Positions 17,594-36,315 of a stretch of DNA of 60,732 bases are shown here, in pieces. The DNA lies in NCBI GenBank assembly GCA_016219285.1, contig JACRNJ010000049.1:1-60732 (forward strand), in the 5' to 3' direction. A model generated the notes under the pieces. It did not search any database and was not told the origin of the DNA. It was given only the letters and a program-made list of their open reading frames with translations. The DNA is from Deltaproteobacteria bacterium (GTDB lineage Bacteria > Desulfobacterota > GWC2-55-46 > UBA9637). Positions within the stretch are counted from its first letter, which is position 1, and every line of letters begins with the position of its first letter. The translations under genes were made by a program, and so were the position numbers.

Positions 17594-18166
17594 TTAGATA
17601 AAGCAGACAAGCTGGGCTATTGTAGTGCCTGCTGTATAGGCTGCAGATGCCCTGCAGGTGCCGCTATTATAAATGCCGTCATCTACCATTGCATCTACTG
17701 CCTGCGCATTTTCAGCCGATAGATTATCAAAACGTATAAGGTTTCCTGTCTTGCCCTGAATTGCATCGTAATAAATCAAGACGTCGCCTCCATACTTGTG
17801 CTTGATGTTCTCACTTGTTCCGTTATAACTCCCTGCTATAAGTCCGGCGCATGCAAGATGTTCCGCTGCTGCATAATACTCGGTAATCTGTCCATTTCCA
17901 TTGCCACTTGTGGTTTCGCATTTTCCGGTAGCCCATGAACGGGAAGTGGCAGCATTGTCATCCCCTGGAAATTGCTGATATTTATCCTGATAACTATAGA
18001 CTGCTGCCATAAGGCTCCTGTATTGCTCGCCGACATTCTTAATCTTTGCGCTGTTAATCATCTCCTGCCCTTTTAGCACTGCGCCGAGGATAATACCGAT
18101 TATCACCAGCACTATCGCCAGTTCAATCAGGGTAAAACCTTTTTGATTCTTGCTTTTTGTGTCCAT
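17594..18166 (-). CDS. Type IV pilin-like prepilin
   Basis: A 190-residue protein starting at the ATG preceded by AAAAGGAGG (the frame opens further upstream). It has a short basic leader, the prepilin peptidase site KG|FTLIELAIVLVIIGIILG and the hydrophobic N-terminal helix. The C-terminal body has four Cys and ends LVCFI. Such proteins are methylated at the new N-terminus and assembled into type IV pili or a pseudopilus. No other pilus gene is nearby. A short ORF with a strong ribosome site precedes it. Confidence 0.9.
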   Translation of the reverse strand: MDTKSKNQKGFTLIELAIVLVIIGIILGAVLKGQEMINSAKIKNVGEQYRSLMAAVYSYQDKYQQFPGDDNAATSRSWATGKCETTSGNGNGQITEYYAAAEHLACAGLIAGSYNGTSENIKHKYGGDVLIYYDAIQGKTGNLIRFDNLSAENAQAVDAMVDDGIYNSGTCRASAAYTAGTTIAQLVCFI

Positions 18167-18231
18167 TGTAACCTCCTTTTTTAATGACGATTGCACCGCT
18201 AAACATCGTCATAATTACCATGTCGCCAATA

Positions 18232-18400: not shown

Positions 18401-18632
18401 TTACAAGGTCTTTAAAAACGTCTCCACTATCTTTGGGTCAAACTGTGCGCCTGAGCATCTTTTCAATTCGCCTACAATTGCATCCATATGACTTCCCTTT
18501 CTGTAAGGCCGCCTGTAAGACCGCTAATATATATCACAGGCATATCGCAGCGCTCACGGATCTGTTTGGCAGCAGCCACACCGTCCATTCCGCCTTTCAG
18601 CACAATATCCATGAGGACCAAATCCGGCCTTT
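18401..18632 (-). pseudogene. Remnant of a response regulator with HD-GYP output
   Basis: Reading 18632 downward, one frame gives [20 protein letters not shown] then PVIYISGL, the middle of a receiver domain including its phospho-Asp. It hits a stop near 18495. Another frame then gives ELKRCSGAQFDPKIVETFL, a typical HD-GYP C-terminus, ending at TAA 18401-18403. The 5' part of the gene is replaced by a MITE-like element and the centre is deleted, so it is certainly non-functional. Confidence 0.75.
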
Positions 18633-18781: not shown

Positions 18782-18825
18782 GTTGATAGTTGCTTTATAT
18801 TTTAACTCCAATATTGACCATGTCA

Positions 18826-18845
18826 ACCTGTCCTTTTTGACAGGT
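18826..18845 (+). promoter_or_regulatory. lux-box-like operator upstream of luxI
   Basis: A 20-base palindrome ACCTGT-N8-ACAGGT; both half-sites are identical to those of the Vibrio fischeri lux box. Its centre (18835.5) lies about 40 bases before an expected start near 18875, given AT-rich -10 candidates (TATAAC, 18863-18868). That is the class II activator position of LuxR proteins and suggests positive autoregulation of luxI. Confidence 0.8.
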
Positions 18846-18939
18846 AACAAAATATTATATTATATAACACTTCTATAAAAAATATAACTGCCAACCCTGC
18901 CAGTTACATGAATGTTAAATTTCTGTTAAAAATATTTTC

Positions 18940-19602
18940 ATGGAGCTGATATTTCAGGAAGGAGATTATCTGATAAAAACCTTGTCAACACATGAAGAGA
19001 TGGAGGAGGCCTTTCGTTTAAGGCATGAGGTATTTGTTGATGAACTCAAATGGGTTCCTGCATCGCCGGATGGAATGGAAAAAGACAGATATGATGCATT
19101 CGCCGATTCATTAGGGGTTTTTGACGCAGACAACAGGCTGGTGGGTCATGTCAGGCTTATCCCTGCGCCACTGCCGTTCATGGTAGAAAAGGAATTTGCC
19201 TGTCTTTTGCCCAAAGATAAACCTTTCATAAAGGTTTCCAAAATGGCGGAGTGCACAAGGATATGTGTTAAAAAAAACTACAGAGCAATTACAATAGATT
19301 CTTCCTTAACATTAGGCCATCTGCTTTATAAGGCTGTTTATCAATGGGGGCTTATGCAAGATGTGAAACTATTGGCAGCAGTTGTAGAAAGGGGATACTA
19401 CCACTATTTAAAATCATTTTTCCCATTTGAATTGTTGGGAAATTTTTCTACAATCGGAGATGGGGTTAAGGCCGGCGTAATCACAGTAAATTGGCGTAGT
19501 TTTGAAGTTGCTGCAAGAGAAAAAAGGCCTGAATTCTTACAATGGATGACTAATCTGCCTGCCCTTGTTCCAGCGCAATGGCTACGGCATGCGCTTTATT
19601 AG
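18940..19602 (+). CDS. luxI: LuxI-family acyl-homoserine-lactone synthase
   Basis: A 220-residue protein with the family invariants in order: R28, F32, W38 (FRLRHEVFVDELKW), E47, D49 and D52 (GMEKDRYD), R72 (HVRLIP), E104 and R107 (ECTR). These enzymes make an AHL signal from S-adenosylmethionine and an acyl donor. No Shine-Dalgarno precedes the ATG. Its 3' end overlaps the convergent luxR gene by 53 bases. A related GNAT-fold acyltransferase (exosortase/PEP-CTERM-associated) is the main alternative, but the paired LuxR and the lux-type palindrome favour AHL synthesis. Confidence 0.88.
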   Translation: MELIFQEGDYLIKTLSTHEEMEEAFRLRHEVFVDELKWVPASPDGMEKDRYDAFADSLGVFDADNRLVGHVRLIPAPLPFMVEKEFACLLPKDKPFIKVSKMAECTRICVKKNYRAITIDSSLTLGHLLYKAVYQWGLMQDVKLLAAVVERGYYHYLKSFFPFELLGNFSTIGDGVKAGVITVNWRSFEVAAREKRPEFLQWMTNLPALVPAQWLRHALY

Positions 19603-20296
19603 TTGCATTAAGTTTATTTTTTATATTCTCTATATGGAATTTTACCGTCCTCTCGCTTAGATTCAGTATCACAGATATTTCCCAGTTGGTTTTGCCGTCT
19701 TTAATCCATTGAATAATCTCCGCCTCCCGTGGCGTCAGAGAAGGCAATGGTTTTCTTGCGCTCTCTTTACACACCTTGGCTATTGCCTGATGACAATGCG
19801 GAATAATAATATCTACTATTGCCTTTTGATGCGCTCCAAAATGGTTTTTGCTTCCGGCGAAATTTATGATGCTGCCCAATCTGGTATGGGTAGATAAAAT
19901 AGAGCTTGATATCCCAAAATTCAGATTAAAACTTTTAGCATTGTGGATAAATTCAGGAGATATTTTTTCCTTATATTGTTTGTAAGTATCCGCCCATGTC
20001 TGCGTTCCTAAAAATTTGGAGTGCCACCACACAATCGGGTCTATTTCATAAAGTTTTTTTTCGCCATATGCAATGAACCATGCATCAGGATAGCTGCTGT
20101 TTATTATCGTTCTTGCACCAATGAGCCTATTATCATTGCATACACCCAAACCACATATACTATAGTCACCGCATACCAATTCTTTAGCCTTTTCCAATAC
20201 TGTTTTAATATCAGCCTCATTTCTGCAAGTTATGAGGGTTTGTATTGTTTCAAGAATTTGCATCACTTCTTTTTTGGAAAAATCTTTATAGCCCAT
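19550..20296 (-). CDS. luxR: LuxR-family quorum-sensing transcription factor
   Basis: A 248-residue regulator. The N-terminal autoinducer-binding domain has all signature residues: W73, Y77, D86, P87, W101 and G128. The C-terminal GerE helix-turn-helix (about 185-245) reads LTPREAEIIQWIKDGKT...ERTVKFHIENIKNKL. It is convergent with luxI with overlapping 3' ends, an arrangement known from the esaI/esaR type. A lux-box half-site (ACCTGT on the minus strand, 20355-20360) lies upstream of its start but lacks a proper second half. Confidence 0.92.
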   Translation of the reverse strand: MGYKDFSKKEVMQILETIQTLITCRNEADIKTVLEKAKELVCGDYSICGLGVCNDNRLIGARTIINSSYPDAWFIAYGEKKLYEIDPIVWWHSKFLGTQTWADTYKQYKEKISPEFIHNAKSFNLNFGISSSILSTHTRLGSIINFAGSKNHFGAHQKAIVDIIIPHCHQAIAKVCKESARKPLPSLTPREAEIIQWIKDGKTNWEISVILNLSERTVKFHIENIKNKLNATNKAHAVAIALEQGQAD

Positions 20297-35780: not shown

Positions 35781-36315
35781 TATCTGTCCCTACAACTACC
35801 TCATCAATACCATCCGTTTCCTTTAAATGAACCTTGATTGTTTCCTGTGTTGATGTCGGCACATTCTTGCCCACATAATCAGGTCTTATTGGAAGCTCCC
35901 TGTGCCCCCTGTCAATCAAGACAGCCAGATGAATACTGCTTGGTCTGCCGAAGTCCATTATTACATTCATTGCTGCCCTGATTGTCCTTCCGGTAAACAA
36001 GACATCGTCAACAATAATAATCTTTTTATTATCAATTGGAACAGGTATATCTGTCTCTTTTAATATCGGCTGGTCGTGCTTCATTCCTATATCATCTCTG
36101 TAAAGCGTTGCATCAAGGCTGCCAACCGGCAGGTTGATGTTTTCTATACTCTTTAATATATCCCTTAATCTCTTTGCAATATGCACTCCCCGCGTTGGAA
36201 TACCAAGGAGGATTATATCTTCAGCGCCTCTGTTTTTTTCAATAATCTCGTGCGCTATTCTTGTCAATGCCCTTTCTATGCCTTTTTCATCTATGATGCT
36301 TTTTTTCTTCACCAT
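35770..36315 (-). CDS. pyrR: Pyrimidine operon attenuation protein PyrR
   Basis: A 181-residue PRPP-binding protein: [27 protein letters not shown], and the PRPP motif [16 protein letters not shown]. PyrR binds UMP and the pyr leader RNA to favour termination and often has uracil phosphoribosyltransferase activity. First gene of pyrR-pyrB-pyrC, preceded by a matching RNA site and a terminator. Confidence 0.97.

Follow-up and report, generated by a model that had tools for sequence, protein, structure and literature searches.

Paired LuxR-type boxes ahead of luxI suggest a two-operator AHL circuit conserved in a class of uncultivated bacteria

The intergenic region ahead of the only luxI gene of this uncultivated groundwater-type bacterium, which like its relatives carries a complete chemical signalling circuit, holds two conserved palindromes, and the reading that we consider probable is that they serve as separate operators: the proximal one (box 2, 18886-18905) would drive luxI as a class II site on a leaderless transcript, and the distal one (box 1, 18826-18845) would drive a divergent gene. 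Both are unique in the genome. The window, by which we mean the whole 60,732-nucleotide stretch of DNA that was analysed, and its relatives supply the genes, their diagnostic residues, the two boxes and the conservation and spacing of these, from which LuxR binding, activation, start sites and AHL production are predicted. Two LuxR-type boxes lie in the luxI intergenic region of 25 of the 28 non-redundant related loci of the class that form our comparison set, and a single box in the remaining 3 (L012, L020 and L049), locus counts that are not independent, the relatives being of shared ancestry.

Under the proposed mechanism LuxI would make an AHL, and the CviR-like LuxR encoded by the convergent gene would bind this AHL before binding to the boxes. 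From its place at about -43, box 2 would activate a class II luxI promoter made up of a weak -35 element (GTTACA) and an extended -10, and transcription from or beside the ATG would give a leaderless mRNA and positive feedback. Box 1, whose spacing to a leftward -10 is the same class II distance, would activate the divergent gene, which belongs to the RadC family in most relatives; here only the remnant of a dead response regulator is left of it, followed further out by a pilin gene.

The luxI gene (18940-19602, forward strand) encodes an AHL synthase of 220 amino acids with a match to PF00765 of 71.4 bits (cut-off 24; E 9.4e-20), and luxR (19550-20296, reverse strand) encodes a CviR-like AHL-responsive regulator of 248 amino acids matching PF03472 (50.5 bits) and PF00196 (78.9 bits), all three matches being above the curated Pfam cut-offs. 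Each is the only gene of its kind in the genome. The eight residues by which AHL synthases are defined are all present in LuxI (R28, F32, W38, D49, D52, R72, E104 and R107), conserved at 95% or more in 28 relatives. The ten solved structures nearest to its AF2 model (mean pLDDT 90.9) are all AHL synthases (BjaI, LasI, TofI, RpaI, MesI); the N-acyl amino acid synthase FeeM ranks after these ten, the FeeM profile PF21926 gives only 27.7 bits on LuxI and TIGR03694 stays below its cut-off. By sequence, the best solved-structure match of LuxR is CviR (E 1.4e-36), and its pocket and HTH residues W73, Y77, D86, P87, W101, G128, E193 and G201, which correspond to W57, Y61, D70, P71, W85, G113, E178 and G188 in TraR numbering, are kept in 24 relatives. 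These data do not allow the signal's acyl chain to be predicted. The two genes are convergent with 3' ends overlapping by 53 bases, and luxR is convergent with luxI in every relative where it was found. Strong synthase matches place the circuit in 29 of the 63 species of the class. A second group gives weak Autoind_synth matches (E 1e-4 to 1e-7, for example in G349, G412, G413 and G155), and these proteins are perhaps not AHL synthases but other N-acyl transferases.

Box 1 (ACCTGTCCTTTTTGACAGGT) had been singled out in a preliminary description as a 20-base palindrome with both Vibrio fischeri half-sites, lying upstream of an AHL synthase gene with a luxR next to it, and in these respects that description holds: the forward strand reads exactly ACCTGT-CCTTTTTG-ACAGGT, a 20-bp dyad with a CTG-N10-CAG core, and both genes are present. 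A genome search for further ACCTGT-N8-ACAGGT sites, which the same description had suggested, returned box 1 as the sole exact match in 2,279,713 bases, where about 0.14 would be expected per genome by chance (12 fixed bases, our own arithmetic) and the reversed pattern used as control has 0 matches. Box 1 is kept in 25 of the 28 class loci. Its proposed position as the class II activator site of luxI is not supported. The nearest -10-like hexamer to its right, TATAAC at 18863-18868, is 17 nt away, not 21, and a -10-like element 21 nt to the right occurs in only 2 of 25 loci (offset statistics). The -10 at exactly 21 nt stands to the left: a TATAAT-like hexamer with at least 5 of 6 matches is found there in 20 of 25 loci (offset statistics) and, when one locus is taken per genus, in 10 of 14 against a shuffle null mean of 0.5. 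In the window a consensus scan gives a leftward promoter on the reverse strand (18799-18826) with 11 of 12 matches, namely TTGACA (18826-18821), a spacer of 16 nt and TAAAAT (18804-18799); with -35 and -10 elements so near to consensus it may be able to work without an activator. The distance from box 1 to everything rightward varies among the relatives, the box-to-box distance being 58-61 in 16 loci, 67-71 in 7 and 80 in 2. These clusters lie about one DNA turn apart. The class II position of luxI is taken by box 2, which had been overlooked. The locus thus appears from its sequence to be a genuine AHL circuit, as had been claimed, with a lux-type box, a LuxI-family synthase and an AHL-type LuxR in a class-conserved unit; what finds no support is the role of box 1 as the luxI operator. 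It had probably been assigned to the wrong promoter, although it could still assist luxI from afar. A search for an intrinsic terminator found none, and a palindrome at 35909-35924 lies within a pyrR-like gene and was judged to be due to chance.

Box 2 (AACTGCCAACCCTGCCAGTT) is a 20-bp dyad with the CTG-N10-CAG core, whose AACTG-N10-CAGTT pattern is unique in the genome; a box occupies this position in all 28 class loci. It is 44 nt from the luxI ATG in the window, and across the 28 loci its centre lies 43-45 nt ahead of the ATG, or 58-60 nt in 5 of them. To its right we identified a putative luxI promoter (18903-18932, forward strand) composed of GTTACA (18903-18908), a spacer of 18 nt and the extended -10 TG-T-TAAAAA, with the TG at 18924-18925 and the hexamer at 18927-18932; the TTAC is present in 27-28 of 28 loci. 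The TGnTA of the extended -10 is exactly 21 nt from box 2, the mirror image of the left -10, and TTAC and TGnTA recur together with unchanged spacing in 15 of the 17 genera against a null mean of 0.15 (one-per-genus shuffles). Box 2 also has a leftward -10-like hexamer, TATAAT on the reverse strand at 18859-18864, again at 21 nt, with TA in 28 of 28 loci, TAnnnT in 96% and at least 5 of 6 matches to TATAAT in 26 of 28 (information profile, offset statistics); one per genus, it is present in 15 of 17 against a shuffle null mean of 1.1. The left hexamers of both boxes are far more frequent at 21 nt than at other offsets or in shuffles. A role for the leftward hexamer of box 2 is presumed from its position; a transcript starting from it would cross box 1, with no clear purpose. 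As the spacing of box 1 to its left hexamer and of box 2 to its hexamers is fixed while the box-to-box distance varies, box 1 is best assigned to the leftward promoter and box 2 to luxI. For the predicted start sites, class II spacing (near -42) suits box 2 as a luxI operator and box 1 as an operator of its leftward promoter, but not box 1 as a luxI operator. An RNA hairpin was considered for box 2; across the relatives its inner positions are unpaired and the outer AACTG/CAGTT is fixed, which fits a protein-binding site better. Lacking the CTGT/ACAG core present in box 1, box 2 may be weaker or may be bound by something else.

In the three single-box loci the lone box is at the box 2 position, its centre 43-44 nt before the ATG (58 nt in L012), and the three read ACCTGTCCGAACGGACAGTT, ACCTGTACTATTGTACAGTT and AACTGTCCAAATGGACAGTT. 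The published CviR site is CTGNCC-N4-GGNCAG (PMC12114271); ACCTGTCCGAACGGACAGTT and AACTGTCCAAATGGACAGTT match it exactly and ACCTGTACTATTGTACAGTT is lux/CviR-like, which argues for a LuxR-type site at the box 2 position. Exact matches to CTGNCC-N4-GGNCAG in the boxes of several relatives also suit a LuxR of CviR type. In the single-box loci the one box would serve both sides.

The -10 spacing predicts that luxI transcription starts at the ATG or one base before it (18939-18940, forward strand). Counted from a start at the ATG, box 2 falls at about -43, so that luxI is probably transcribed without a leader. Consistent with this, no Shine-Dalgarno sequence precedes the luxI ATG in 24 of the 28 class loci. 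It is present in just four loci (L016, L048, L052 and L062, all of one genus), and precisely these have an ATG further from the -10 and a leader about 16 nt longer; this counts as a single evolutionary event, yet it is what the leaderless model predicts.

RadC-family genes occupy the place left of box 1 in 18 of 28 loci (L008, for example, matches PF04002 with E 4.9e-38). Within the genus of the window the gene there varies: G005 has an intact response regulator that contains PAS domains, G007 an unknown protein. The window itself retains a 40-amino-acid remnant of such a response regulator (18511-18630, reverse strand), 90% identical over 40 amino acids to the intact G005 gene, and this decayed divergent gene marks the recent loss of a probable quorum-sensing target. 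The first intact gene left of box 1 is type IV pilin-like (17594-18196, reverse strand; PF07963, E 1.1e-09), and is a possible target of box 1. A gene 93% identical to the divergent gene of G007 (L006) is placed elsewhere in G006 (L113), where it has a perfect box to itself, ACCTGTTCAAAAGGACAGGT, and a -10 lies 21 nt from that box. This pair of loci provides what we regard as the best indication that box and target gene move together.

Several other assignments of the boxes were weighed. Box 1 might be the activator of luxI through the TATAAC at 18863-18868, with box 2 as a downstream site, for example for LuxR negative feedback or a repressor. The best lux consensus is in box 1, the -10-like hexamer stands 17 nt on from it, and box 2 would fall at about +20 of the resulting start. 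However, the 17-nt gap is 4 short and becomes about 25 or 37 nt in those relatives whose boxes stand further apart; the invariant bases of the hexamer fit a leftward -10 better, a rightward reading giving C at position 6 in 20 of 28; the mRNA would carry a leader yet be without a Shine-Dalgarno sequence; and it is box 2, not box 1, that is retained in the single-box relatives. We consider this assignment unlikely. Somewhat less unlikely, though still doubtful, is that LuxR binds both boxes and that these act jointly on luxI, cooperatively or through a loop, with the divergent genes being incidental. The clustering of the box spacing at about 60, 68 and 80, roughly one turn of DNA apart, and the variation of the divergent gene between genera speak for such joint action, but the leftward -10 is at exactly 21 nt from box 1 across genera and the divergent gene of G007 retains its own box when located elsewhere in G006.

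The core CTGT-N8-ACAG is also that of the enterobacterial LexA operator. The boxes could hence be SOS operators, with which they have this core in common, and the divergent RadC bears the name of a DNA repair protein. Against this, a search upstream of 10 further radC loci from the class (covering 500 nt in nine, 127 nt in one) found no CTG-N10-CAG, the boxes in sister genomes precede genes for a response regulator, exported proteins, a pilin-like protein and a PilZ protein, the inner CC/GG fits CviR, and the CTGT/ACAG core is missing from box 2; a LexA operator is accordingly very improbable. That box 1 is a chance palindrome can practically be dismissed. Loose matches are frequent in the window (20 with up to 3 mismatches against a mean of 14 in shuffles, which is chance level), but the exact site is unique, stands ahead of luxI and is kept across many genera, and this conservation refutes a chance origin. 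The reading in which box 2 serves luxI and box 1 the divergent gene is the one that we retain as probable.

In Vibrio fischeri the LuxI/LuxR system uses a lux box with the half-sites ACCTGT and ACAGGT near -42 of luxI, and luxR is divergent. The present locus resembles it in the LuxI-family synthase, the AHL-type LuxR, the identical half-sites and a box predicted to lie near -42 of luxI; it differs in that luxR is convergent, there are two boxes, the luxI mRNA is probably leaderless, and the class II position of luxI is taken by a box of the AACTG/CAGTT type. In Chromobacterium the CviI/CviR (CsuI/CsuR) genes are convergent with overlapping 3' ends, by 80 bp in C. subtsugae, and csuI has a single box at -69 to -84 (PMC12114271). 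The similarities here extend to the LuxR, closest to CviR by sequence among solved structures, to the convergent overlapping genes and to the CTGNCC-N4-GGNCAG site, whereas two boxes and a divergent target gene set our locus apart. In Agrobacterium two tra boxes separate traI from a divergent operon, and TraR can activate a pair of divergent class II promoters through a single box (PMC3907764). The position of the boxes between a synthase gene and a divergent operon is shared with this system, but the targets of TraR are plasmid conjugation and replication genes with no RadC among them, and the arrangement described here is conserved class-wide. Hence LuxI/LuxR with lux boxes, convergent overlapping genes and boxes between synthase gene and divergent operon were already known; what is new is that they occur together, that the synthase gene is probably leaderless, that RadC is the partner and that the arrangement is conserved throughout a class of uncultivated bacteria.

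AHL signalling outside Pseudomonadota is thinly documented, and a 2026 review describes its distribution there as unknown (PMC13136126). Owing to the strong conservation of the promoter layout, the operators, the -10 elements and the probable start can be read from sequence in this case, and luxI offers a clean test case for a leaderless autoinducer-synthase gene. As a tentative extension, perhaps true but far from assured, the class as a whole might use a leaderless luxI mRNA made from the proximal lux box and a second box, several helical turns further upstream, coupling the signal to the divergent RadC-family gene, an ancestral AHL-to-RadC circuit, perhaps for DNA uptake, outside the well-studied proteobacteria. 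RadC is found in competence regulons elsewhere, yet is dispensable for transformation (PMC6237807, PMC5069739), and the link to DNA uptake is for this reason a guess; we found no literature on radC adjoining luxI. A RadC-family pseudogene with two stops is present in the same genome as the window (G000, contig 3, 18284-18598; L126), with no lux box nearby.

The candidate direct targets that can be named are the RadC-family genes, the response regulator, exported proteins, the pilin-like gene and a PilZ gene. Within the window's own genome the box search that was also run on the sister genomes returned box 1 and four other sites, and the near-matches (L104-L109) were rejected as chance since they lie in coding sequence or have no -10 at the right distance. 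A regulon of exact boxes is nonexistent in this genome, which has the one site, and as its nearest box-like sites are intragenic or without a -10, the regulon here may be very small or may depend on weaker boxes. Several boxes occur in the sister genomes, with a -10 at the right distance before genes for a hybrid response regulator (L112), a PilZ protein (L120) and exported proteins (L110 and L111); a further one (L114) is near a pilin-like gene, its best -10 being on the opposite side. The lux-box promoters of the two exported-protein genes of G005 (L110, box 1531; L111, box 1518) are nearly identical, as if co-duplicated.
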